DNA of 64,000 nucleotides from Sinorhizobium arboris LMG 14919. GTDB taxonomy: Bacteria > Pseudomonadota > Alphaproteobacteria > Rhizobiales > Rhizobiaceae. Below the pieces are notes generated by a model. The model was not told where the DNA came from and ran no database searches. It worked only from the letters and a program-made list of their open reading frames with translations. A program made the position numbers and the translations under genes. Shown here one piece after another: positions 9,934-38,116 of the stretch (position 1 is the first letter of the stretch; each line of letters begins with the position of its first letter). The DNA lies in the NCBI RefSeq assembly GCF_000427465.1, contig NZ_ATYB01000014.1, forward strand, positions 458,316 to 522,315, written 5' to 3'.

Positions 9934-10757
9934 CCCATGTTCTCGAAGCCCGCAACCTGGTGCGCGACTATCACATTCCCGGCAACCTGTTCCGCAAGGC
10001 GCGCACCGTTCACGCGCTGAAGGGCGTAAGCTTTACGGTCGATGAAGGCAAGACGCTCGCGATCGTCGGCGAAAGCGGCTGCGGCAAGTCCACGCTCGGG
10101 CGCATCATCACGCTTATCGATCCTGCGACCTCGGGAGAGCTGTTGATCGACGGCAGGAAGGTCGACATCGCCCGCGAGGGGCTGACGGCGGAGATGCGCC
10201 GCAAGGTTCAGATCATCTTTCAGAACCCTTACGGCTCTCTCAACCCCCGCCAGAAGATCGGCGATATTCTCGCGGAACCGCTCATCATCAACACCAAAGT
10301 CCCGGCAGACGAACGCCGCGACCGGGCCATGGCGATGTTGAAGAAGGTCGGGCTCGAGGAAAAGCATTACAACCGCTATCCGCACATGTTCTCCGGCGGC
10401 CAGCGGCAGCGCATCGCGATCGCCCGCGCCCTGATGCTCAATCCCAAGCTTCTTGTTCTGGATGAGCCGGTTTCGGCGCTCGACCTTTCCGTCCAGGCAC
10501 AGGTTCTGAACCTGCTCGCCGATCTGCAGGACGAGTTCAAGCTGACCTATGTCTTCATCAGTCACGATTTGTCGGTGGTACGCTATATCGCCGACGACGT
10601 CATGGTGATGTATTACGGTGAAGCGGTCGAGTATGGCAGCCGGGACGCGGTATTCTCCGATCCGCAGCACGACTATACCAAGACCTTGTTCGCGGCGACG
10701 CCGCGGGCGGACGTCGCCAGCATCAAGGCCCGGCTCGCCCGGAAGAATGCCGCCTGA
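9930..10757 (+). CDS. dppF: Dipeptide ABC transporter ATPase DppF
   Basis: Second ATPase of the heterodimer (275 residues), with Walker A GESGCGKS at 47-54, signature SGGQRQ at 155-160 and Walker B LLVLDEP at 174-180. The start overlaps the dppD stop as ATGA, so translation is coupled. It closes the transporter operon; the 170 bases after it contain no clear terminator. Confidence 0.93.
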   Translation: MTHVLEARNLVRDYHIPGNLFRKARTVHALKGVSFTVDEGKTLAIVGESGCGKSTLGRIITLIDPATSGELLIDGRKVDIAREGLTAEMRRKVQIIFQNPYGSLNPRQKIGDILAEPLIINTKVPADERRDRAMAMLKKVGLEEKHYNRYPHMFSGGQRQRIAIARALMLNPKLLVLDEPVSALDLSVQAQVLNLLADLQDEFKLTYVFISHDLSVVRYIADDVMVMYYGEAVEYGSRDAVFSDPQHDYTKTLFAATPRADVASIKARLARKNAA

Positions 10758-10934
10758 GCAGATAATGCATATCGCGCGAATGCCGTGCAGCGGTGTTGGG
10801 AGCGGACGGTTGGCGGCCGGCTTGTTGGCGTTCTCGCCGCAGTCGTGTAGAGCTTCCCTGCCACCGTCCGAACCGGCGGCAGCAACCGCTCTCGCCGGCA
10901 GACTCCTGTTCGGCTCAATACCAGGATGAGGATT

Positions 10935-27320: not shown

Positions 27321-28004
27321 TCACTTGCTCGGCTTACCCGCACTGCGATGCTGCTGGATGAAGTCTGACAGGAAGGTTGAAGCGCGAACGCACCTCCGAT
27401 GCACGGCGATCGCCTGAGGCACTTTCGAGAACATCCCCTCGACAACGCGGAAGCCTGGATTCTCTTCGCAGAAACGTGACAGGGACTCGGTCAAGCCGGC
27501 AGCCGCATCGCACTGGGAGGATACAAGCATGTCCAGGGCGGAGACGGGACTTTCGGTATGGAGGAGGATTGCATTTCTAATCCGTCGCTCAAGCTGCTTT
27601 GTATACGCAGCGGTTCTGGCGGCGGCGATGCGCACCCCTTCGACGTCGACATGCCCCACGCTACCTAAGGGGCTACTGTTTGACACCAGAAAGCTGGCGG
27701 TCACCGTCATATAGGGGGGCGAGAAGGAGAACCTGTCGGCACGTGACGGATCGGAAGCAATGAATGCAACGTCCCACTCGTTGCCTTCGGCAGCCGCAAG
27801 AATGTCGGCAGCCGATCCATATCGAACCAGCGACAAACTGCAGTCGAGTTCTGCGGCAAGAGCGATCGCGATCTGCGCGCTCGGCCCTGCTAGAGAGCCT
27901 GTCACTGGATCGAGTTGGACAACTGCGGCATTCGACATGTTGACCGCCGCTCTGATGACTCCCGTCGGTGCGATTTCAGTGAGGAGTTCATCACGTTCCG
28001 GCAT
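27321..28004 (-). CDS. Solute-binding-fold protein without signal peptide
   Basis: A 227-residue protein of the SBP_bac_3 fold (amino-acid-type binding protein): [20 protein letters not shown], then [20 protein letters not shown] and [22 protein letters not shown]. It begins directly with [15 protein letters not shown], so no export signal is present, and its start overlaps the end of the aldolase gene by 14 bases, which makes a longer secreted form unlikely. It should be cytosolic. It could be an enzyme that evolved from this fold, as cyclohexadienyl dehydratase did, or a small-molecule sensor. Last gene of the leftward catabolic operon. Confidence 0.75.
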
Positions 28005-28782
28005 CGCAGTACGCTCCTTGCGATGCAAATCGTGCCGCGAGTGCTTCCGATCCCCTTGCCAGAACAGCGACATCGACACCAACGGCAGTAAATAGTGTTC
28101 CTAGTGAGATGCACCGGGCCGCGAACTTCTCATCCGGGGTAAGAATGCCTGCAGGCTTGCCCAACGCTTTCAGGCGTTCGATCGCGTCGACGATTGCATC
28201 GACCACCTCCGGGTGGCTCGGTTGGCCTCTGTGTCCGAAACTCGCTGCCAGGTCTGCCGGTCCTACGAATACGCCGTCCACTCCCTCTACCGAGGCAATC
28301 GACTCGAGGTTGCCAAGCGCTTCCCGCGTCTCAACTTGCAGCAACAGGCAAATTTCCCGTTCTGCATTTTGCGCATAGTTCGCAACTCGCCCGAAACGAG
28401 TGGCACGCGTCAGGGCGGAAACACCACGAATTCCATCCGGAGGATATCGCACCGCCGCGACTGCGGCTTTCGCCTCTTCCGCGTTCTGAACGTAGGGAAT
28501 GAGCAGTGTCTGAACGCCAATATCCAGGAAACGTTTGATGAGAACGGGGTCGTTGATGGCCGGGCGGACGACGGGGGAAACGTCGTATGGTGCGACCGCT
28601 TGCAATTGCGGCAGAACGGTCAGAACGTCACCCGGAGAATGTTCCGTGTCGAACAGGAGCCAGTCGAAACCTGAAGGCGCGACGATTTCCGCGGCGTAGT
28701 TTCCAGGGAGGCCACACCACAGGCCGATCTGACTTTGACCAGCAAGGAGCTTCTGCTTGAAACGATTGACAGGATGTTCCAT
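27991..28782 (-). CDS. hpaI: HpcH/HpaI family class II aldolase
   Basis: A 263-residue aldolase very like HpaI (4-hydroxy-2-oxoheptane-1,7-dioate aldolase), which splits the last homoprotocatechuate intermediate into pyruvate and succinic semialdehyde. The family blocks [31 protein letters not shown] (metal and base residues, quoted only by its ends QIGLW and DTEH), [23 protein letters not shown] and [12 protein letters not shown] are all present. It follows the hydratase gene with 9 bases between them. The true substrate could be a related 4-hydroxy-2-oxo acid, since the upstream enzymes differ from the classical pathway. Confidence 0.9.
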
Positions 28783-28791
28783 CCCAGCACC

Positions 28792-29574
28792 TCACACGAA
28801 CGACACGCCGAGGGAGCCAACAGGGCCGTAGTCGGCCTGAATGACATCACCTCTCGCGATATCGACAGGACGCGTGAAGGAGCCGGCCAGGACTATTTGT
28901 CCCTTCTTCAGGCCACCGCCCACAGCATGAAGTTTGTTGACCAGCCATGCGATGCCGGCTGCCGGATGTCCCATGATCGCCGCCGACACGCCCGACTCCT
29001 CGATAATGCCGTTCTTGGAAAGAGTCGCTCCGACCCAACGGATATCAATATCCATCGGGCGAATTATACGGCCGCCAACGACGAGGGCGCCGAAAGCCGC
29101 GTTGTCCGCAATGGTATCGGTGATCGCTCGAGGGACTTCGGTCCGGTAGTCGATAATCTCGAGCGCCGGGACAACGAACTCGGTCGCACGCATGACGTCA
29201 TAGATCCTGGTGCCAGGCCCCACGAGATCCTCACCCATAACAAAGGCCAGTTCGACCTCGAGGCGCGGCCTGATAAACAAGTCAGCCCTGATCTGCGCTC
29301 CGTCGTTGTAAAGCGCATCGTCGAGAATGCAGCCGTAGTCCGGCTCCGTCATCTTCGAAGCCATCTGCATTGCGCGTGACGTCAGGCCGATCTTATGCCC
29401 AACGATCCGTGCGCCCTTGGCGACCCTCGCCTCCGCCCATAAAGCCTGAATCCGGTAGGCGTCCTCGAGTTCGAGGTTCGGGTAGGTCTTGCTAGGCTGT
29501 ATGATCGGCTTGCGCTCGATTTCAGCTTTGAGCAGCGCGTCTGCCGCGGCCCGGCGTTCTTCTTCGGTGATCAT
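28792..29574 (-). CDS. hpaH: 2-oxo-hepta-3-ene-1,7-dioate hydratase (HpaH type)
   Basis: A 260-residue enzyme of the hydratase/decarboxylase family, closest in pattern to HpaH: HKIGLTSRAMQMASKMTEPDYGCILDD (quoted from HKIGL to ILDD by its ends), PRLEVELAFVMGEDLVGPG with the metal-binding glutamates, DNAAFGALVVGGR and the end GSFTRPVDIARGDVIQADYG. HpaH adds water to the dienol intermediate before aldol cleavage. Related family members are 4-oxalocrotonate decarboxylases, so a decarboxylase role is the main alternative. Between the dioxygenase and the aldolase in one operon. Confidence 0.9.
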   Translation of the reverse strand: MITEEERRAAADALLKAEIERKPIIQPSKTYPNLELEDAYRIQALWAEARVAKGARIVGHKIGLTSRAMQMASKMTEPDYGCILDDALYNDGAQIRADLFIRPRLEVELAFVMGEDLVGPGTRIYDVMRATEFVVPALEIIDYRTEVPRAITDTIADNAAFGALVVGGRIIRPMDIDIRWVGATLSKNGIIEESGVSAAIMGHPAAGIAWLVNKLHAVGGGLKKGQIVLAGSFTRPVDIARGDVIQADYGPVGSLGVSFV

Positions 29575-29598
29575 GTCGTTTGCTCTGCTGATCGTGAT

Positions 29599-30492
29599 TT
29601 ATTTGATCGGGGGACGCGGCAAAACGGCTTCGCCGGGTTCCATGACATAGGTGTAGTCGAGCGAGAACCACGGACCAGGAATATCCGTTTCGGTCGGATG
29701 GGGCTCCTCATGGCGAATGAAGTCGCCGGTCAGGGCTGCCGTGACACCGAACTGAACATCGGAGTCGATGTTCGGGTCGCTGGGGTCGAAGACCTGGGAA
29801 ATCAGCGTCTTGTATCCGTGCCTGAAGATCAGTGCGTGCAGGTGCGCCGGTCGGTACGGATGGCGTCCCTGAGCTTTGAGCAGGCGTCCGACCACGCCAT
29901 CGACCGGTATGGGATACCCGACCATCTTGACGGTCCTGAACCAGAACCGACCTTGCTCGTCGGTCATGAATTTGCCGCGCAAGTTCATCTCGGCCTGGTC
30001 CGGGTCCTGGTTTTCATAAAGACCGACGGGAGATGCATGCCACACATCCACTTCCGCGCCGGCAATTGGCTTACCGTCGCGGTCAACGACCCTGGCATGC
30101 ACGAACAAGGGAGTGCCCGGCGTCTCGGATCGGATAATCGTCCCGCCATTTTCGACTCGCGGAGAGTTGAGGCGCCAGAATGGGCCCAGCAGCGACTGGG
30201 ATGTCTCAGTCTGTCCTCTGTCACCATTGTTCAGGAGGCAGACAAGTGAAGACACGCCAAGAGAACCGGCCATCAGCACAAACTCGTTGTGGTGATCCGT
30301 GTGCAGCTTCCCGATCTCATTCAGTATGGCTGTCGCCTCCCGAAACTCGACCTCCGTCAGTCGAACCTCGCGCACGAAGGCATGAAGATGCTTGACCATC
30401 GCCACGAGGATTTCTCGCAGGCGGGGGTCTTCAGTGCGATTCATCACAGCAAGGACGGCTGGCGTCAGATCGCTTTCAGTTTTGATCACCAT
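29599..30492 (-). CDS. Intradiol ring-cleavage dioxygenase (catechol/hydroxyquinol type)
   Basis: A 297-residue non-heme Fe(III) dioxygenase. The N-terminal helical dimerisation domain (about 1-100) marks the catechol 1,2- or hydroxyquinol 1,2-dioxygenase group, not protocatechuate 3,4-dioxygenase. The iron ligands are Tyr159, Tyr193, His217 and His219, in GLYENQ, VGYPIP and RPAHLH. The start chosen has GGGAGG 7 bases upstream; an ATG ten codons earlier lacks one. It opens the leftward operon and is divergent from a GntR regulator. Its partners are meta-pathway enzymes, which is unusual for an intradiol enzyme; the substrate is probably a trihydroxylated ring. Confidence 0.9.
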   Translation of the reverse strand: MVIKTESDLTPAVLAVMNRTEDPRLREILVAMVKHLHAFVREVRLTEVEFREATAILNEIGKLHTDHHNEFVLMAGSLGVSSLVCLLNNGDRGQTETSQSLLGPFWRLNSPRVENGGTIIRSETPGTPLFVHARVVDRDGKPIAGAEVDVWHASPVGLYENQDPDQAEMNLRGKFMTDEQGRFWFRTVKMVGYPIPVDGVVGRLLKAQGRHPYRPAHLHALIFRHGYKTLISQVFDPSDPNIDSDVQFGVTAALTGDFIRHEEPHPTETDIPGPWFSLDYTYVMEPGEAVLPRPPIK

Positions 30493-30523
30493 GTGGGCTA
30501 CCTCCCGATGCCCGGCTACCAAA

Positions 30524-30535
30524 ATAATCGATTAT
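30524..30535. promoter_or_regulatory. Palindromic operator candidate ATAATCGATTAT
   Basis: A perfect 12-bp palindrome 32 bases upstream of the dioxygenase start in the divergent region. The half site ATAATCG recurs at 30686-30692 in the gntR promoter, so both operons may be controlled by the same GntR protein. Confidence 0.55.
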
Positions 30536-30676
30536 CTGTCAAGGTCGCCGTACATTATCGCGGCGCCAATAAGCCGAGAGAAACAGCGCAGCAGCATGCT
30601 ACGCGTTGATTTCATTACACATTAATCGCACAAAAAAGCTAAGGCTTGATTTTTTGCAGATTTCAGCGCGCTCAAG

Positions 30677-30705
30677 TTGACAGGAATAATCGTTTATTAT
30701 ATCGA
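30677..30705 (+). promoter_or_regulatory. Promoter of the gntR operon with overlapping operator
   Basis: TTGACA at 30677-30682 and a -10-like TATCGA at 30700-30705 (17-base spacing). The interval holds the ATAATCG half site and an inverted TTATTAT, consistent with autoregulation. The gntR start lies 39 bases downstream. Confidence 0.55.
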
Positions 30706-30743
30706 TCATCGACAATTAGTTCGGGGGAGCCTTGGGAGGAACA

Positions 30744-31481
30744 ATGGTACCGGATGACGACGGCGCATTTGCTCCGACGACAGAAGATGCTCCATCGTCT
30801 TCTGGCTTTCTTGACGACGGCAAAAACACAATTGGGAGCCAGCTTGCATCCCGCCTTCGTGAGGCGATCATCTCCGGCGAGCTTCAGGCCGGCAGCAAGA
30901 TCAATCTCGACAAGGCGCGCAAGACGTTCAACGTAAGCCTCAGTCCGCTGCGTGAAGGGTTGGCGCGGCTGATATCGGACGGTCTAGTGGAGTTCGAGGA
31001 CAATCGCGGCTACCGCGTCTCATCAATTTCCTTGGCCAATCTGGAAGAGATCACCACCCTGCGCGAAGAGTTTGAAGTCTTCGCGCTTCGCGAGTCCATG
31101 CGGCTCGGCGATGTGGAGTGGGAGGGCAACGTCATGCGCGCGCTGCATCGCCTTAACCGCACCGAACGTGACGCGGCTCGGCCAGAGACACTGGAGCGCT
31201 GGGAAGAACTCCACCGCGAATTTCATCTGACACTCATATCTGGCTGCGGGAAGCCGATCCTGCTCCATTTCTGCAGATTGCTTCTTAATCTCAACGACCG
31301 CTATCGCCGGGTGTTTCTGACCCGCACGTCGGGTGACCGCAACGTCAGCCAGGAGCACAGTGAGATTGCTCAGGGAGCCGTCGCGCGGGATCTGGACTAT
31401 TCGTGCGACATGTTGCGTCAGCATATCCACCGCACGGGAACCAATCTGCGCAATCACCTCGCGACAAAGGGGATCTTGTGA
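30744..31481 (+). CDS. GntR family regulator, FCD (FadR) subfamily
   Basis: A 245-residue repressor: winged helix at about 30-95 (ASRLREAIISGELQAGSKIN through RKTFNVSLSPLREGLARLISDGLVEF) and an all-helical FCD ligand domain after residue 100, with the EFHLTLISGCGKP metal/ligand block. GGGAGGAACA precedes the ATG. It heads the rightward catabolic operon, overlapping the next gene by one base, and is divergent from the dioxygenase operon. The ligand is probably the pathway substrate or an intermediate. Confidence 0.88.
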   Translation: MVPDDDGAFAPTTEDAPSSSGFLDDGKNTIGSQLASRLREAIISGELQAGSKINLDKARKTFNVSLSPLREGLARLISDGLVEFEDNRGYRVSSISLANLEEITTLREEFEVFALRESMRLGDVEWEGNVMRALHRLNRTERDAARPETLERWEELHREFHLTLISGCGKPILLHFCRLLLNLNDRYRRVFLTRTSGDRNVSQEHSEIAQGAVARDLDYSCDMLRQHIHRTGTNLRNHLATKGIL

Positions 31482-32302
31482 TGACCGTCGCGACGCCAAG
31501 GCCGGGCCTTGAACTGGGCGTGGCGCATTTCTCATCCATCGCGCTGCCGCCCAACGAATTCGCCGTGATAGCTGCTCGGGCGGGTTTTGCGTCGATAGGT
31601 CTGCGTCTGCACCCCGCCTTTCCCGGAGCCCCTTGCTACGAGTTGCCGGTGGGCAGCCAGTGTGCCCAAGAGTTCAAGACAATCGCTGATGGCGAAGGCA
31701 TCAAGGTGTTCGATATCGAGTTCTTCGTGATCGACGAGAGCTTCGTTGCGGCCTCCCACGAGGCGACCGTGGCAGCCGCTGCGAACATAGGGGCGCGCCG
31801 GCTGAGTGTTTGCGGCGATGATCGAGACGGCGGCCGGCTTGCCGCAAACTTTTCTGCGTTTTGCGCCCTCGCGGCGCGATATGGCATGTCAGTCGACATC
31901 GAAAACATGGGCTGGCGGACGGTAAGAACCTTTCGGGACAGCATAGCGGTCGTGAATTCCTGCGGAGCAGAGAACGCCGGTGCCCTCGTTGACGGGATTC
32001 ACTTCTTCCGAAACGACGCCTCGATCGACGAGCTTCGCACAAATGCAGGGAAGGTGAAACACATCCAGCTTTGCGACGTCCGCGGGCCTGCTCCCAAAAC
32101 AACGGACGCAATGATCGCCGAGGCGAGAAGCGGCAGGCTCGCTCCTGGAGAAGGCGAATTGCCGTTGAAGGACCTCTGGGCGGCAACCGAATACGGCGCT
32201 GCTGTCTCGGTTGAAGTGCCACTCGTCGGGCCGGTGGACCCGGAGGCACATCTAAAACATCTGCATGACAGCGCACTGGGGATTTTGAAACCGGATCATT
32301 GA
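31481..32302 (+). CDS. TIM-barrel sugar-phosphate isomerase/epimerase, possibly 3-dehydroshikimate dehydratase
   Basis: A 273-residue protein of the AP-endonuclease-2-like TIM barrel. A full metal-site pattern is visible: Glu141 (DIENMG), Asp171 and His174 (DGIHF), Gln196 (HIQLCD) and Glu245 (VEVPL). This set is shared by xylose-isomerase-like epimerases and by AsbF/QuiC-type 3-dehydroshikimate dehydratases that make protocatechuate. With shikimate-pathway enzymes in the same operon the dehydratase role is attractive, but sequence alone does not separate it from an epimerase. The start overlaps the gntR stop (TGATG). Confidence 0.75.
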   Translation: MTVATPRPGLELGVAHFSSIALPPNEFAVIAARAGFASIGLRLHPAFPGAPCYELPVGSQCAQEFKTIADGEGIKVFDIEFFVIDESFVAASHEATVAAAANIGARRLSVCGDDRDGGRLAANFSAFCALAARYGMSVDIENMGWRTVRTFRDSIAVVNSCGAENAGALVDGIHFFRNDASIDELRTNAGKVKHIQLCDVRGPAPKTTDAMIAEARSGRLAPGEGELPLKDLWAATEYGAAVSVEVPLVGPVDPEAHLKHLHDSALGILKPDH

Positions 32303-32348
32303 TCCGGCGCCGACGCGGCGTAGGCCGGTCGGAGGGAGGAAGTCTTAC

Positions 32349-33017
32349 ATGACTTATACGTTTGATTTCGGTGCGGTCCTTGACCGCGCCCCGGAATTGC
32401 TATGGGGTTCGCTTGCAACGCTTGGCCTTGCGTTGGCTGGGATGCTCCTCGCGCTCGTCATCGGAATCCTGGGCGTTGTTGCAAGGACTTCCAAGAGCGA
32501 GATCGCACGCACTCCCGTTATCGTCTTCGTCGAGGTCGTGCGTAATACACCATTCCTGGTGCAGATATTCTTCATATATTTTGCCCTTCCTCTCATGGGC
32601 ATACGCCTTAATCCGACCGTTACGGCGATCATTGCCCTTGGCATCAACGGTGGGGCGTACGCAATCGAGATCATCCGAGGCGGGGTCGAGAGCGTGTCGC
32701 GCGGCCAGATCGAGGCAGGTTTCGCACTTGGTCTGCACAAGGCGGACGTCTTCCGGCTCATCGTGCTCAAGCCAGCGCTGCGGGCGATTTATCCCTCGCT
32801 CACAAGCCAGTTCATCATGCTGACACTGACAACGTCTGTCTGCACCTCAATCGCCGCCTACGAACTGACCTCGGCCGCTCAGCGCATTGAGTCTGACACG
32901 TTCCGCAGCTTCGAAGTCTATTTCACGGTGACCGCTATCTACCTGGTTATCTCGACGCTGATGATGGGCCTCTTTGCCCTCATTTCTCGCCACTACTTCA
33001 ACTATCCAACGCGATAG
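32349..33017 (+). CDS. Polar amino-acid-type ABC transporter permease 1
   Basis: A 222-residue HisM/GlnP-type permease with about five helices and the coupling motif RGQIEAGFALGLHKADVFRLIVLKPALR. GGAGGGAGG precedes the start. The import substrate of the family is usually a polar amino acid; in this operon it may be a hydroxylated carboxylic acid. Confidence 0.9.
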   Translation: MTYTFDFGAVLDRAPELLWGSLATLGLALAGMLLALVIGILGVVARTSKSEIARTPVIVFVEVVRNTPFLVQIFFIYFALPLMGIRLNPTVTAIIALGINGGAYAIEIIRGGVESVSRGQIEAGFALGLHKADVFRLIVLKPALRAIYPSLTSQFIMLTLTTSVCTSIAAYELTSAAQRIESDTFRSFEVYFTVTAIYLVISTLMMGLFALISRHYFNYPTR

Positions 33018-33026
33018 GAGGCAGCC

Positions 33027-33677
33027 ATGGGTCCCATCGGCGAAAACGAAATCTTCTTTTTGATGCAGGGTTTGAAGTGGACCCTGTTGCTCGCGATCGT
33101 GGGCTTCATCGGTGGGGGGATGTTCGGAATCCTGATCGCGCTGCTGCGTACCTCGAAGACGAAGGCCGCCCGGAGGATCACCGCAGGCTATATCGGCGCC
33201 TTCCAGGGCACGCCCCTTCTGATGCAGCTCTTCGTTGTCTATTACGGCGTTGCGCTGTTGGGCATCGAGGTCAACGCGTGGATCGCGGTCGCAATCGCCT
33301 TCACGCTCCATGCCAGTGCTTTCCTGGGAGAGATCTGGCGCGGCTCCATCGAGGCTGTGCCGAAGGGCCAGACGGAAGCCGCCAACGCCCTGGGCCTGCA
33401 TTACGTCTCGCGGATGAAAGACGTCATCCTGCCGCAGGCCCTGAAAATCTCGATGCCGGCCACGATCGGCTTCCTTGTCCAGCTCATCAAAGGCACGTCG
33501 CTGGCAGCAATCGTCGGCTTCATTGAACTCACCCGCGCCGGGCAGATCATTTCAAACCAGACGTATCGTCCGCTGCTCGTCTTCGGGATCGTCGGCGCAA
33601 TCTACTTCATCGTTTGCTGGCCGCTCTCCCATGCCGGAAGTGGCCTCGAAAAACGGATGGCGAAAGCTGCCCGCTAA
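33027..33677 (+). CDS. Polar amino-acid-type ABC transporter permease 2
   Basis: A 216-residue permease paired with the previous one, starting 9 bases after it. Coupling motif KGQTEAANALGLHYVSRMKDVILPQALK; five predicted helices. The two permeases form the heterodimeric channel. Confidence 0.9.
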   Translation: MGPIGENEIFFLMQGLKWTLLLAIVGFIGGGMFGILIALLRTSKTKAARRITAGYIGAFQGTPLLMQLFVVYYGVALLGIEVNAWIAVAIAFTLHASAFLGEIWRGSIEAVPKGQTEAANALGLHYVSRMKDVILPQALKISMPATIGFLVQLIKGTSLAAIVGFIELTRAGQIISNQTYRPLLVFGIVGAIYFIVCWPLSHAGSGLEKRMAKAAR

Positions 33678-33718
33678 CCGCTTCGTTCGAAGCAAAACTC
33701 TTGAGGAGGAGAACAAGC

Positions 33719-34543
33719 ATGCATACCAATCGTAGGTCTTTTCTCGGACTTGCACTGGCAACCGTTACCTTCGCAACCGTTGGCGCTGCCGCCGCCTCTG
33801 CGGCAAGTGTGGAGGAAATCAAGGCAAAGGGCACGCTTGTGGTTGGCATCCAGGGCGACAATGCGCCATGGGGATTCGTCAACACAAGCGGCGTGCAGGA
33901 CGGCTTCGACGCTGACGTCGCCAACCTTTTTGCCAAGGAATTGGGCGTGAAGGTTCAATTCCAGCCGCTCGCCGTCGCCAATCGAATTCCGGCGCTGACG
34001 ACCGGCAAAGTCGACATCCTGTTCGCGACGATGGCGATGACGGAAGAACGCGCGAAATCAATTCAATACAGCAAGCCCTACGCCGCCAACACGATTTCTC
34101 TTTATGCCGCGAAGTCCGACACGGTTACGAAGCCTGAAGACGTTGCGGGATGGGAGATCGGCGTTCCGAAGTCCAGTTCGCAGGATAAGGCAGTAACGGA
34201 CGCCGTCGGATCCACCGCAACGGTCCGCCGCTTTGATGACGACGCCGCAACCATCCAGGCTCTGATCTCCGGACAGGTAAAGGCGGTTGGCGGCAATCAG
34301 TTCTATGGTCAGCGTCTGGATGCCGCGAGTGCCGGCAGCTATGAGCGCAAGATCAACTTTCTGACGACCTACAACGGCGTCGGGACCCGTCTCGGCGAGA
34401 AGGACTGGAACGAAGCCGTCAACGCCTTCATCGAAAAGATCAAGGCCAATGGTGAGCTTGCCGCCATCACGAAGAAGTGGATGGCGATCGATCTGCCGCA
34501 GTTCCCGGAGTCCATTCCGAACATCCCGTTCACCGTCAATTAA
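33719..34543 (+). CDS. ABC transporter periplasmic substrate-binding protein
   Basis: A 274-residue SBP_bac_3 protein. The N terminus, [20 protein letters not shown], has a twin-arginine-like motif followed by a hydrophobic stretch, so Tat export is possible. The mature protein shows [21 protein letters not shown] and [23 protein letters not shown], which line the ligand site. GAGGAGG lies about 8 bases before the ATG. Arginine in the usual amino-acid carboxylate site (TEERAKSI) suggests a carboxylated ligand. Confidence 0.9.
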
Positions 34544-34562
34544 ATCCCAGATGGAGAGTTCC

Positions 34563-35324
34563 GTGCTCAATTCCGCAAACGATCGACCGACGCTGATTTC
34601 CCTTGAGGACGTGCAGAAGTGGTACGGCGCTTTCCATGCCTTGAAGTCCATCAGTCTGTCGGTCCGCAAAGGCGAGAAAATCGTCCTCTGCGGGCCGTCA
34701 GGCTCCGGGAAATCAACGTTAATCCGCTGCATCAATGCCCTCGAAACGATCGAGGACGGCAAGATCGTCGTCGAGGGTCAGGTACTGGACGGAAGCACCA
34801 GATCCGTCGATGCGATACGTCGCGAAGTGGGAATGGTGTTTCAGAGCTTCAATCTCTTCCCGCACATGACCGTACTTCAGAACTGTACACTCGCCCCGAT
34901 GCGTGTTCGAGGCACAAGCCACGCTGACGCAGAGCGACTGGCTCGAAAATATCTCGAGCGCGTTCGAATCCTTGACCAGGCGGAAAAGTATCCTGCGCAG
35001 CTATCCGGCGGGCAACAACAACGCGTTGCCATCGCTCGCGCGCTCTGCATGGAGCCGAAGGTCATGCTCTTCGACGAACCAACCTCTGCCCTCGATCCTG
35101 AAATGGTGAAGGAGGTGCTCGACACCATGATCGGGCTCGCCCGTGACGGCATGACGATGATCTGTGTCACGCACGAAATGGGGTTTGCCCGTCAGGTCGC
35201 TGATCGCGTCATCTTCATGGCCTCCGGAGAAATCGTCGAAGAGGCCGAACCGGAGGTCTTCTTCAAGTCTCCCAGGCACGAACGCACGAAAACCTTCCTA
35301 GGCGAAATCCTTGCCCACCACTGA
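34563..35324 (+). CDS. ABC transporter ATP-binding protein
   Basis: A 253-residue ATPase of the polar-amino-acid uptake group: Walker A GPSGSGKS at 44-51, signature LSGGQ at 147-151, Walker B VMLFDEP at 167-173. I chose the GTG because GGAGAG lies 5 bases upstream; an in-frame ATG four codons earlier has no ribosome site. It completes a four-gene importer, so the cluster has its own uptake system. Confidence 0.9.
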
Positions 35325-35342
35325 CGTTCGAAAGCGATACCA

Positions 35343-36203
35343 ATGCACGACAAGAAATTCCTCGTGGGACTGATCGGGGCCGACATTCAAATGTCGAAGT
35401 CCCCGGCTCTCCACGAAACGGAGGCTCGACACCAGGGCATCGATTACCGCTACGAACTTCTCGACTTCGCCGAGCGAGGCCTTCCAGCGTCGGCGCTGCC
35501 GGACCTCCTAGACGAGGAAGAGCGCCGCGGTTTTGCCGGGAGCAACATTACACATCCGTGCAAGCAGACGGTGATCGCTCACCTGAATCGCCTTTCCGAG
35601 GATGCAGAGATGCTCGGCGCGGTCAACACCGTGGTCTTTCGTGACGGCGAGAGGATCGGCCACAACACTGATTGGTACGGTTTCTATGAGAATTTCCAGC
35701 GCGGCCTTCCGGACGTCGCGAAGTCGCATGCCGTCCTGCTGGGCGCCGGCGGCGCCGGTGTCGCCGTGGCGCATGCCGCAATCAAGCTCGGTATTGAGAG
35801 ATTGTCGATCTTTGACCAGGATTCGAAACGGGCAGAAACCCTGGCTGGGCAGTTGAACGAGCGGTTCTCCAGGGCTTGCGCTCGTGTCACGACGGATGTC
35901 GGCAGCACCCTGCGCTCCGCGGACGGCCTTATCCACGCGACACCGACGGGTATGAAGAGCCATCCTGGTTTGCCGATCGACCCGGAATGGCTGCTGCCAT
36001 CGCATTGGGTCGCCGACATCGTCTATATGCCGCTCGTCACAGAGCTCCTTGCTCTCGCCGAAAGAAAAGGCTGCCGGACCCTTCGTGGCGGCGGCATGAC
36101 CGTCTACCAGGCAGCAGCGGCTTTCGAATTATTCACCGGGATAGCACCCGACGCAGAGCGCATGTCCCGTCACTTTACGGACTTGTGCCGCCTGTCGATT
36201 TGA
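35343..36203 (+). CDS. Shikimate/quinate dehydrogenase family protein
   Basis: A 286-residue member of the AroE family. Substrate-binding SKSP is at 18-21, the catalytic Lys74 in NITHPCKQ, the NTD motif at 108-110 and the nucleotide loop GAGGAG at 134-139. The motif HPCK replaces the usual IPxK and the residue after NTD is Trp (usually Gly), which points away from housekeeping AroE and towards catabolic shikimate/quinate dehydrogenases. It could convert quinate or shikimate to the 3-dehydro forms, or act on a relative. Located between the importer and an isomerase gene. Confidence 0.85.
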   Translation: MHDKKFLVGLIGADIQMSKSPALHETEARHQGIDYRYELLDFAERGLPASALPDLLDEEERRGFAGSNITHPCKQTVIAHLNRLSEDAEMLGAVNTVVFRDGERIGHNTDWYGFYENFQRGLPDVAKSHAVLLGAGGAGVAVAHAAIKLGIERLSIFDQDSKRAETLAGQLNERFSRACARVTTDVGSTLRSADGLIHATPTGMKSHPGLPIDPEWLLPSHWVADIVYMPLVTELLALAERKGCRTLRGGGMTVYQAAAAFELFTGIAPDAERMSRHFTDLCRLSI

Positions 36204-36217
36204 TGGGGAGATCCCAA

Positions 36218-36586
36218 ATGCCGCACATCATCATCGATTATAGCCGGGGCGCAGGCGAGCATGTGGCCATAGACCGGCTGACGCTGGCCGTGCATCGCTG
36301 CGTTCGCGATGGCGGCCTTGTGAAACCTTCCGCCGTGCGCACGCTTGCGCGGGAGGCGACATACTCCTGCGTCGGCGATGAGCATGTCGATAATCATTTC
36401 ATCCAAATCATCGTGCGGATGGCACCGGGTCGTACTGCAGAAACCAAGCAGAAGCTCCTCACTGCCGTTCTCGAGGCCGCGCGGGCGATCGCCGCGCCTG
36501 CTCTCGAAGTTGGAAGGCTCGGCTTGCGCGCAGATCTCTACGAGTCGGACCCTGATTTTGCTGTTCAAGCAATCGCGTTCGTCTGA
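36218..36586 (+). CDS. 5-carboxymethyl-2-hydroxymuconate isomerase (HpaF) family protein
   Basis: A 122-residue tautomerase-superfamily protein beginning [13 protein letters not shown]; Pro2, exposed after Met removal, is the catalytic base of this superfamily. The repeat-like halves and the segment [23 protein letters not shown] are as in HpaF/CHMI. The family shifts the double bond of hydroxymuconates in meta-cleavage pathways. In the same cluster HpaH and HpaI homologues are encoded by the opposite operon, so the three probably act in sequence. Identity with true HpaF is moderate by eye. Confidence 0.78.
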
Positions 36587-36621
36587 CCAGAACAGCGTAC
36601 TCAAGAAGGACACTATCTACT

Positions 36622-37071
36622 ATGAGCCGGATCTACGTTCTCAATGGACCAAACCTCAATCTGCTCGGCAAACGCCAGCCGCATATCTACGGGCATGAAA
36701 CGCTCGCAGACGTAGAAGCGGACTGCCGCAAACTGGCAGCCGAACTCGGCCACGAAATCCGCTTTCATCAAAGCAACCGGGAATACGAGATCATCGATTG
36801 GATTCATGAGGCGCGCGAGGACGGTGCGGCCATCGTCATCAATCCGGCAGCCTTCACCCATACCTCACTCGCCATCCTTGACGCTCTGAACACATTTGAG
36901 GGGCCTGTGATCGAGATCCACATCTCCAATGTGCACAAGCGCGAAAGCTTCCGACACCATTCGTTCGTTTCGCACCGCGCGGACGGCGTGATCTGCGGCC
37001 TTGGAACAGAAGGATACCAGCTTGGCATCCGGCGCGCGGCGACAATGATCAAGGCTGCGAGCAAGGGCTGA
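36622..37071 (+). CDS. aroQ: Type II 3-dehydroquinate dehydratase
   Basis: A 149-residue enzyme that converts 3-dehydroquinate to 3-dehydroshikimate. The signature [21 protein letters not shown] supplies Arg18 and Tyr23, and [16 protein letters not shown] supplies His100 and Arg111. Type II forms serve both biosynthesis and quinate breakdown; being in an inducible-looking operon with an importer argues for breakdown. Starts 35 bases after the isomerase gene. Confidence 0.92.
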
Positions 37072-37078
37072 GGTGACC

Positions 37079-38116
37079 ATGACCCAACGGGTTAAGCTGG
37101 CCGTACTTGGCGCAGGCCTCATCGGTAGGCGCCATATTCAGCACGTCCTGGCCGAGCCCTCGGCGCAACTCAGTGCCGTGGTCGATCCCACGCCGGTTGG
37201 CGAGACTATTGCCAAGGAAGCCGGCGTGAAGTGGTTTACAAGCTTCGCGGACATGATTGCCGCAGACCGTCCTGACGGGATCATCGTGGCTACGCCTAAC
37301 CAGGCTCACGTCCAGAACGGGTTGGAAGCCGTTGGAGCCGGCATTCCCGCACTCATCGAGAAGCCTATCGCCGATGACGTTTTATCCGGGGAAAAGCTGA
37401 TCGCAGCGGCTGAGGCAAAAGGTATTCCTCTTTTGACTGGCCATCACCGCCGACACAATCCGGTGATGCAGAAGGCAAAGGAAATCGTCGAAAGCGGAAA
37501 GCTCGGCCGCGTTCTTGTTGTCAATGCGATGTTCTGGCTGTTCAAGCCCGACGATTACTTCGACATCTCGTGGCGTCGTGAGCGCGGTGCGGGGCCGGTT
37601 TTCCTCAATCTCATCCACGATGTCGACAATCTGCGCTACCTCTTCGGCGATGTGGCTGCGGTTCAGGCACGCGAGTCCAACGCGGTGCGCGGCAACGCAG
37701 TTGAGGAAACGGCTGTGATCCTGATCGAGTTCAAGAATGGCGTATTGGGAACTGCGACGGTCTCGGACTCGGTGGTCGCACCGTGGAGCTGGGAGATGAC
37801 AACCGGAGAGAATCCGGCCTATCCCAGAACCGAGCAATCCTGTTACATGATCGGAGGAACGCACGGGGCGCTGGCTGTTCCGTCGCTCGAAGTCTGGCGC
37901 AATCCTGGTAAACGGAGTTGGTGGGAACCATTTGACCAGACGCGCATCGAGGTCGACGACGAGGACCCGCTCGTTCTGCAGATCAGGCAATTCTGCAAGG
38001 TGATCCTCGGAGACGAACCGCCGCTTGTCAGCGGGCGTGAGGGGCTCGAAACCTTGAGGGTAGTCGATGCGGTAAAACGCTCGGCGGCAATGGGAGAACG
38101 TATCGAGTTGAACTGA
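37079..38116 (+). CDS. Gfo/Idh/MocA family NAD(P)-dependent oxidoreductase
   Basis: A 345-residue dehydrogenase: Rossmann motif VLGAGLIGRRH near the N terminus, the EKPIADDV loop at about 98-105 with the conserved lysine, and the C-terminal domain with HDVDNLRYLFGDV. Family members oxidise hydroxyl groups of inositols, sugars and cyclitols. The ATG chosen has GAGG 5 bases upstream and lies 8 bases after the aroQ stop; a GTG two codons earlier is possible. It closes the operon. It may oxidise the imported cyclitol-like substrate first. Confidence 0.85.
   Translation: MTQRVKLAVLGAGLIGRRHIQHVLAEPSAQLSAVVDPTPVGETIAKEAGVKWFTSFADMIAADRPDGIIVATPNQAHVQNGLEAVGAGIPALIEKPIADDVLSGEKLIAAAEAKGIPLLTGHHRRHNPVMQKAKEIVESGKLGRVLVVNAMFWLFKPDDYFDISWRRERGAGPVFLNLIHDVDNLRYLFGDVAAVQARESNAVRGNAVEETAVILIEFKNGVLGTATVSDSVVAPWSWEMTTGENPAYPRTEQSCYMIGGTHGALAVPSLEVWRNPGKRSWWEPFDQTRIEVDDEDPLVLQIRQFCKVILGDEPPLVSGREGLETLRVVDAVKRSAAMGERIELN

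Follow-up and report, generated by a model that had tools for sequence, protein, structure and literature searches.

Which ring compound is degraded by an intradiol dioxygenase whose neighbours resemble the lower enzymes of a meta-cleavage pathway? The question is raised by a locus of Sinorhizobium arboris LMG 14919 (genome of 6.85 Mb), located at positions 27321..38116 of the window, i.e., the whole 64,000-nucleotide stretch analysed (contig NZ_ATYB01000014.1, positions 458,316 to 522,315). The locus consists of two divergent operons around one shared GntR/FCD regulator. The minus-strand operon encodes the dioxygenase (DIOX), an HpaH-type hydratase, an HpaI-type aldolase and, as its last gene, a protein with a solute-binding-protein fold (SBPx). 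The plus-strand operon encodes the regulator, a TIM barrel protein (TIM), an ABC transporter, a quinate/shikimate dehydrogenase, an HpaF-type tautomerase, a type II 3-dehydroquinate dehydratase (AroQ) and a Gfo/Idh/MocA oxidoreductase (Gfo). A preliminary description had placed the dioxygenase in one operon with HpaH- and HpaI-like enzymes and an HpaF-like tautomerase in the divergent one; genes and coordinates were found as described, although the hydroaromatic genes, the ABC transporter and SBPx had gone unreported. We tentatively propose, from sequence comparisons, that the cluster is a gallate-degrading module that acts by intradiol cleavage and without decarboxylation; this appears to be its most likely version, followed by one based on pyrogallol.

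A scan of one genome per species yielded 428 confirmed DIOX relatives; the analysis retained the best 80 loci, 13 from Bradyrhizobium and 67 others. Neighbours were counted above fixed identity thresholds (HpaH, 70%; HpaI, AroQ and quinate/shikimate dehydrogenase, 65%; GntR and Gfo, 55%; tautomerase, 50%; TIM, 40%; SBPx, 30%). DIOX relatives below about 65% identity (e.g., L038, L039 and L193-L196 in our numbering of loci), which had other contexts or a partial pocket signature, were excluded from the module counts. HpaH lay directly behind DIOX in 65 of the 67 non-Bradyrhizobium loci and HpaI came next in 63; the tautomerase was found near DIOX in 47. Several of the loci with missing genes were short contigs (e.g., L094, L100, L109, and L129). 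The cluster was widespread, occurring in rhizobia, agrobacteria, Shinella, Aureimonas, Bosea, Methylobacterium, Microvirga, and Paracoccus, and in Sagittula sp. P11 a single strand carried the order FCD regulator-TIM-AroQ-Gfo-DIOX-HpaH-HpaI-SBPx. The DIOX-HpaH-HpaI set is a widely conserved module, not a chance arrangement. The genes of the window are given below, with fractions for the non-Bradyrhizobium loci in which each was found near DIOX.

27321..28004, minus strand: SBPx, solute-binding-protein fold (PF00497), without a signal peptide as judged by eye; at least 30% identity in 55/67 loci
27991..28782, minus strand: HpaI-type class II pyruvate aldolase (TIGR02311), proposed 4-carboxy-4-hydroxy-2-oxoadipate aldolase; 63/67 loci
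28792..29574, minus strand: HpaH-type hydratase (TIGR02312, PDB 2eb4), proposed to hydrate 4-carboxy-2-hydroxymuconate; 65/67 loci
29599..30492, minus strand: DIOX, intradiol ring-cleavage dioxygenase (Pfam Dioxygenase_N and Dioxygenase_C; 297 aa from the likely start), proposed gallate dioxygenase
30732..31481, plus strand: GntR/FCD-family regulator (PF00392 and PF07729), divergent from the DIOX operon; 66/67 loci
31478..32302, plus strand: TIM barrel with QuiC-type active-site residues (PF01261; PDB profile matches); 65/67 loci
32349..33017, plus strand: amino-acid-type ABC transporter permease, named by eye from the open reading frame (ORF); conserved neighbour
33027..33677, plus strand: second amino-acid-type ABC transporter permease, named by eye from the ORF; conserved neighbour
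33719..34543, plus strand (approximate start): periplasmic solute-binding protein of the ABC transporter (PF00497, 122.9 bits)
34449..35324, plus strand (ORF; start uncertain): ABC transporter ATPase, named by eye
35343..36203, plus strand: quinate/shikimate dehydrogenase (PRK12549; PDB 3jyo); 49/67 loci
36218..36586, plus strand: HpaF/CHMI-type tautomerase with N-terminal proline (PF02962); 47/67 loci
36622..37071, plus strand: type II 3-dehydroquinate dehydratase, AroQ (TIGR01088); 59/67 loci
37073..38116, plus strand: Gfo/Idh/MocA oxidoreductase (best NCBIfam IolG), putatively oxidising 3-dehydroshikimate towards gallate; 49/67 loci

Among the lower enzymes, HpaI scored above the equivalog cut-off of TIGR02311 (418.4 versus 368.8 bits). 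The best solved relative of HpaH by sequence was 2eb4, an HpaH (2-oxo-hept-3-ene-1,7-dioate hydratase), with 269 bits, as against 142 bits for oxalocrotonate decarboxylase. The tautomerase matched the PF02962 CHMI family with 58.7 bits (cut-off 26.5; fragment from 36230), and its ORF, which starts with MPHIII, keeps the N-terminal proline required by such tautomerases. The absence of HpaD and HpaE stated in the preliminary description was borne out: neither was present in the cluster, and genome-wide the best scores were 200.9 bits for HpaD (cut-off 321.4) and 496.2 bits for HpaE (cut-off 638.35). The window genome contained no match to the class III family PF02900 (LigB/GalA), and its best LigK/GalC-type aldolase score was 193.3 bits (cut-off 304.5); no GalD-type 4-oxalomesaconate (OMA) tautomerase was found among the cluster proteins scanned, no genome-wide search having been made for it. 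On two other replicons, A. tumefaciens Sta004 pAt1 (L238) and Thioclava sp. p2 (L239), HpaH (about 75% identity) and HpaI-like genes were observed without an adjoining DIOX, behind a small membrane-like protein (145-148 aa, matching no Pfam family) and with branched-chain-type ABC transporters alongside; L238 also carries a tautomerase and a pyruvate carboxylase.

HpaH- and HpaI-type enzymes handle 2-oxo or 2-hydroxy acids. As they need such an acid, the ring should carry three neighbouring hydroxyls, the sole source by intradiol cleavage, which leaves gallate and pyrogallol as candidates. DIOX would cleave gallate between C3 and C4 to 4-carboxy-2-hydroxymuconate, the enol of 4-oxalomesaconate; the HpaF-type tautomerase, where present, would adjust the tautomer; the HpaH-type enzyme would hydrate 4-carboxy-2-hydroxymuconate to 4-carboxy-4-hydroxy-2-oxoadipate; and the HpaI-type aldolase would split the latter into pyruvate and oxaloacetate. 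DIOX, tautomerase, HpaH, and HpaI would in this way replace GalA, GalD, GalB, and GalC/LigK of the extradiol gallate route. All substrates and products named here, as well as the roles of Gfo, TIM, and SBPx, are predictions; the sequences themselves establish the gene content and its conservation, the domain families, the pocket signature, and the alternative contexts. Gallate would need no decarboxylase, since hydration and direct cleavage of 4-carboxy-2-hydroxymuconate could yield pyruvate and oxaloacetate. The preliminary description had considered a decarboxylase to be lacking unless the HpaH-like protein had that role; we rejected HpaH as a decarboxylase, as both profile and PDB scores favour a hydratase. 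Its idea of an intradiol shortcut into a tautomerase-hydratase-aldolase route best explains the DIOX-HpaH-HpaI unit and is probably right in kind, although it overlooked the quinate/shikimate half of the cluster.

DIOX has the N- and C-terminal domains and the Tyr2His2 iron ligands of the intradiol family (CatA/hydroxyquinol type). The ligands, given as Tyr159, Tyr193, His217, and His219 in the preliminary description, are Y169, Y203, H227, and H229 of the 307-aa ORF, and were identical in all 44 aligned homologues. In the pocket, whose positions were assigned by alignment, G86, A230, and Q257 of DIOX align with D83, F224, and V251 of hydroxyquinol dioxygenase (1tmx numbering). This G/A/Q signature was found in 23/23 members of the DIOX clade versus 0/21 other aligned homologues; in the latter, hydroxyquinol-like enzymes, the same positions were D, F/Y, and V/T (21/21). 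It was also present in 60/60 further named loci outside this comparison and in five of six plasmid clusters (L236, L237, L241, L242, and L243), the sixth, the complete Sagittula cluster, having G/V/Q. The signature was identical across quinate, pcaHG, and lig contexts. We propose that DIOX is akin to hydroxyquinol 1,2-dioxygenase but has a rebuilt pocket. According to PMC9204233, the yeast enzyme Acdo1 converts pyrogallol to 2-hydroxymuconate but converts neither gallate nor protocatechuate, apparently due to the carboxyl group. A gallate enzyme would therefore need a changed pocket, and gallate is favoured because these residues are changed throughout the DIOX clade, whatever the context. Among the matches listed, the nearest named relatives were from Sinorhizobium/Ensifer; database names, in the 120 of 7918 matches listed, were mostly 'catechol 1,2-dioxygenase', 'dioxygenase', or 'intradiol ring-cleavage dioxygenase'. 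Two more distant relatives (L038 and L039, 55-61% identity) had as neighbours proteins that resemble short-chain dehydrogenases and quinone oxidoreductases (named by eye), in a different aromatic pathway.

DIOX relatives were also found on 84 plasmid records, 60 of which were listed. The pAt plasmid NZ_CP042276 of a walnut Agrobacterium (L236) was found to carry the tautomerase, GntR and DIOX-HpaH-HpaI-SBPx, followed by a LigM-type protein and next by MetF and PurU; phenylpropanoid side-chain genes lie further downstream. The LigM-type protein scored 818.9 bits to the solved vanillate/3-O-methylgallate O-demethylase LigM, which makes gallate from 3-O-methylgallate. No match to AroQ, TIM, or Gfo was found in 28.9 kb of this plasmid; the tautomerase was kept there, where no quinate gene was found. 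The sharing of an operon with a LigM-type demethylase favours gallate as the substrate. Eleven of the 60 listed plasmid records, from walnut-isolated Agrobacterium, were 386,411-386,412 bp long with the same 80.8% match, of which NZ_CP042276 was read; this strain set resembles one sampling effort. Walnut is rich in gallotannins.

In Bradyrhizobium, cluster-type HpaH/HpaI genes were found near DIOX in none of the 13 loci; a PcaF-like gene was near in all 13 and PcaH in 11. In the remaining two (L120 and L133, both metagenome-assembled), DIOX lay beside a flavin dehydrogenase, AroQ, an OMA tautomerase, a LigJ-like protein, and LigK. L120 pairs AroQ, TIM, and DIOX with a 3-ketosteroid-dehydrogenase-like FAD enzyme and these same oxalomesaconate-type genes; L133 gave no match to TIM. 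No NCBIfam family was matched by the LigJ-like protein; the names LigJ, LigI, LigA, LigC, and PcaF, like those of several further neighbours, were assigned by eye or from BLAST comparisons with such proteins. L120 and L133 were at one stage taken as decisive for gallate and were then demoted, because L120 also has LigAB and LigC-/LigI-like genes, so that its lig genes may serve protocatechuate. LigK scored over the cut-off in 11/11 Bradyrhizobium DIOX genomes searched (11 of the 13 loci, L127 and L130 being outside), versus 6/19 genomes with the DIOX-HpaH cluster. In a sample of 117 genomes of the genus, LigK exceeded the cut-off in 55/59 genomes with DIOX and in 38/58 without it (Fisher one-sided p = 1.7e-4). 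Five of the 11 genomes had, as their sole PF02900 match, a DOPA-dioxygenase-like protein that itself scored below the NCBIfam cut-off of that family, which makes DIOX a candidate source of oxalomesaconate there. This occurrence of oxalomesaconate-pathway enzymes in Bradyrhizobium with DIOX and without HpaH/HpaI favours gallate. One Bradyrhizobium LigK locus (L182) encodes a GalB-like protein (PF02585 PIG-L), and no LigA, LigB, or DIOX match was found in its 19.9 kb. Beside the GalB-like and LigK genes of this locus, a protein encoded at 10014-10880 showed weak NMT1/phosphonate-binding similarity; it may be a second case of a solute-binding fold in a locus of oxalomesaconate type.

Hydroaromatic metabolism makes up half of the cluster; the aromatic acid is therefore probably also made from 3-dehydroshikimate. 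The quinate/shikimate dehydrogenase scored 444.8 bits to PRK12549 (cut-off 235) and 224 bits to PDB 3jyo, a quinate/shikimate dehydrogenase, and AroQ scored 189.1 bits to TIGR01088 (cut-off 169.85). The plus-strand operon would import and convert quinate/shikimate, the dehydrogenase and dehydroquinase yielding 3-dehydroshikimate. The TIM profile matched Lmo2234 (84 bits) and 5hmq (54 bits; PDB name, 4-hydroxyphenylpyruvate dioxygenase), which we take to be QuiC1, while no match to NCBIfam QuiC was obtained for TIM at E 0.001. An ordinary quinate-to-protocatechuate locus was identified on another contig of the same genome, encoding an AroE-like dehydrogenase, a full-length QuiC-type protein (residues 1-620 of 629 matched with 656.2 bits, short of the NCBI cut-off of 1200), PcaD (379.8 bits, cut-off 255.85), PcaH (366.5, cut-off 296.4), PcaG (244, cut-off 126.25), and PcaB (600, cut-off 371). 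The TIM residues E142, D172, H175, Q197, R217, R220, and E246 aligned with this QuiC-type protein and are presumably the metal-ligand and catalytic residues of QuiC. PcaH (at least 50% identity) was found in 0/67 non-Bradyrhizobium loci. Because the QuiC-PcaDHGB route sits elsewhere in the genome, the second hydroaromatic set probably serves another purpose or product.

In plants, 3-dehydroshikimate is oxidised to gallate, as described in PMC7943615 and PMC7752791. The only spare oxidoreductase in the window cluster is Gfo, which, with the help of TIM or beside it, could carry out this step. Its best NCBIfam match was IolG (132.9 bits, below the cut-off of 355), and its PDB matches included 3q2k (114 bits) and PmdC (50 bits). 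Because PmdC is related to the Gfo/Idh/MocA enzymes, we considered an extradiol route in which Gfo would act as the semialdehyde dehydrogenase (LigC type), and rejected it: identity to the LigC-like protein of L120 was 23.6% over 208 aa, other entries such as 3q2k outscored PmdC, and no LigI-like gene was recognised in the cluster. The flavoenzyme of L120 belongs to the 3-ketosteroid/oxocyclohexene-carboxylate dehydrogenase group (PRK12843, 823.8 bits, cut-off 758) and adjoins AroQ; it and its L133 counterpart could desaturate the ring, as candidate 3-dehydroshikimate-to-gallate dehydrogenases. These flavoenzyme genes (L120, 5821-7548; L133, 5308-7041) lie in an apparent operon with the dehydroquinase and DIOX.

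The SBPx ORF overlaps that of HpaI, and the protein appeared to be conserved but fast evolving, being retained in the LigM-linked cluster. Its best PDB sequence matches were the reconstructed ancestors CDT-Anc1/AncCDT-1 of cyclohexadienyl dehydratase (33 bits), a match which suggests that SBPx may be an enzyme.

Several observations weigh against gallate or weaken the argument for it. HpaH, at 349.2 bits, fell 2.3 bits short of the TIGR02312 equivalog cut-off of 351.5. No Gfo match lay near DIOX in 18 of the 67 loci. Partial pocket signatures occur elsewhere, among 58-63% relatives in other contexts (L193, G/F/Q; L194, G/V/Q; L195, D/F/V; L196, D/V/V). LigM also makes protocatechuate; a PobA-like gene in L121, LigAB in L120, and the location of most Bradyrhizobium DIOX genes beside pcaHG fit that acid as well; and TIM, which keeps the QuiC active-site residues, may be a true dehydratase making protocatechuate. 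Further PF02900 matches, partly classified, occur in the remaining six of the 11 Bradyrhizobium genomes and include two of HpaD type, one of PRK13364 type that passes its cut-off, and the LigB proteins of the two lig genomes. The association of LigK with DIOX in the genus sample was computed without correction for kinship. A prediction that Bradyrhizobium with DIOX and without LigK (G876, G941, G952, and G969, the status of the last being absence from the list of 93 LigK positives) would carry the cluster HpaH failed, as only paralogues of about 50% identity were found, present in 21/21 genomes. Finally, an MmsA-type gene lay behind HpaI in three of the five Methylobacterium loci seen (L118, L131, and L241), which suggests malonate semialdehyde and not oxaloacetate as the product. 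The MmsA type is that of CoA-acylating methylmalonate/malonate-semialdehyde dehydrogenases (L118 protein, 594.2 bits, cut-off 448.5); of the other Methylobacterium loci, L109 has a different gene behind HpaI and L129 lacks HpaI.

This last context would suit pyrogallol, which we consider an unlikely substrate, although it ranks next to gallate. A precursor (gallate or other) would be decarboxylated, perhaps by SBPx, given its match to a cyclohexadienyl dehydratase ancestor, or by an enzyme elsewhere; DIOX would then form 2-hydroxymuconate, the tautomerase and HpaH 4-hydroxy-2-oxoadipate, HpaI pyruvate and malonate semialdehyde, and MmsA acetyl-CoA. The equivalog or near-equivalog HpaH/HpaI act on a chain one carbon longer, and PMC9204233 and PMC10512348 offer a yeast precedent (gallate to pyrogallol to 2-hydroxymuconate). 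However, no decarboxylase family was recognised in the cluster, and of the few Methylobacterium MmsA copies that of L241 (M. nodulans plasmid pMNOD01) is interrupted by an in-frame stop. Malonyl-CoA synthase and decarboxylase genes near the Bosea sp. 685 cluster would serve the same end, but resemble an ordinary malonate operon. Moreover, Bradyrhizobium with the same DIOX pocket carry LigK, an enzyme of carboxylated substrates, in 11/11 genomes searched, and the single locus examined in detail adds a GalB-like protein. Protocatechuate would fit most contexts (AroQ with the QuiC-like TIM, LigM, the PobA-like gene, pcaF-DIOX-pcaHG in Bradyrhizobium, and LigAB) and appears somewhat less probable still: TIM would be a 3-dehydroshikimate dehydratase in a second quinate-to-protocatechuate route, DIOX an accessory enzyme of catechol/protocatechuate type, and HpaH, HpaI, and the tautomerase would serve an unrelated acid of the same regulon. 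Its intradiol product, 3-carboxymuconate, should not be used by HpaH/HpaI, judging from these families, and HpaH nonetheless directly follows DIOX almost throughout; the Bradyrhizobium contexts with PcaH or LigAB already own a protocatechuate dioxygenase, and the window genome has QuiC and PcaDHGB elsewhere. Kinship with hydroxyquinol 1,2-dioxygenase also allows an ordinary enzyme of that type, whose product, maleylacetate, would be reduced elsewhere. This is very unlikely: D83 and V251, which we take to be the specificity-determining residues of the solved enzyme, are absent from the DIOX clade (G86 and Q257 instead), whereas D/F/V is found in a dioxygenase of Thioclava whose annotated neighbour is maleylacetate reductase (hydroxyquinol context).

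Gallate degradation, as proposed here, would resemble the Pseudomonas putida pathway (GalA/GalD/GalB/GalC) in its 4-oxalomesaconate enol, in 4-carboxy-4-hydroxy-2-oxoadipate, and in its end products, pyruvate and oxaloacetate. In P. putida, GalA and GalD catalyse the cleavage and tautomerisation steps. To our knowledge, bacterial gallate dioxygenases are all extradiol, GalA being of class III, whereas the cluster has an intradiol enzyme; its tautomerase, hydratase, and aldolase are of Hpa families instead of PrpF-, PIG-L-, and RraA-type, and it is coupled to hydroaromatic genes. The GalB and GalC steps are covered in PMC10512348. With the homoprotocatechuate (hpa) meta pathway the cluster shares HpaF-, HpaH-, and HpaI-type enzymes, but it lacks HpaD, HpaE, and HpaG, its first enzyme is intradiol, and a seven-carbon chain is not expected. 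The yeast route (Agdc1, Acdo1), as described in PMC9204233, likewise cleaves a 1,2,3-trihydroxybenzene in intradiol fashion to 2-hydroxymuconate, but decarboxylates first, Acdo1 being inactive on gallate; the cluster is a bacterial operon with no recognised decarboxylase and a different lower pathway. The bacterial quinate/shikimate-to-protocatechuate pathway (QuiC/AsbF type) has in common a quinate/shikimate dehydrogenase, a type II dehydroquinase, and a QuiC-like TIM active site, whereas the cluster has no protocatechuate ring-cleaving genes and an additional Gfo/Idh/MocA enzyme, the classical route lying elsewhere in the same genome. Among the matches listed in the open-access literature, no title or abstract opening described this cluster, which is weak evidence of novelty, subscription journals being outside the scope.

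The cluster would be a variant of known gallate catabolism and not a categorically new system. Taken as one chain, the scheme is doubtful: quinate/shikimate would be converted to 3-dehydroshikimate, and this to gallate by an NAD-dependent Gfo or, in some Bradyrhizobium, by the ketosteroid-dehydrogenase-like flavoenzyme; intradiol cleavage to enol-oxalomesaconate would lead to pyruvate and oxaloacetate, with protocatechuate bypassed and a cytosolic SBPx recruited as an enzyme. Gallic acid is a building block of plant tannins, and quinate and shikimate are plant acids. If the proposal is true, these bacteria would own an intradiol dioxygenase specialised for gallate and would have rebuilt the lower pathway with non-orthologous enzymes taken from the homoprotocatechuate route, and their catabolism would connect hydroaromatic plant acids with gallate. 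This would explain so widespread a cluster and would suggest that tannin-related acids serve as nutrients at the root.

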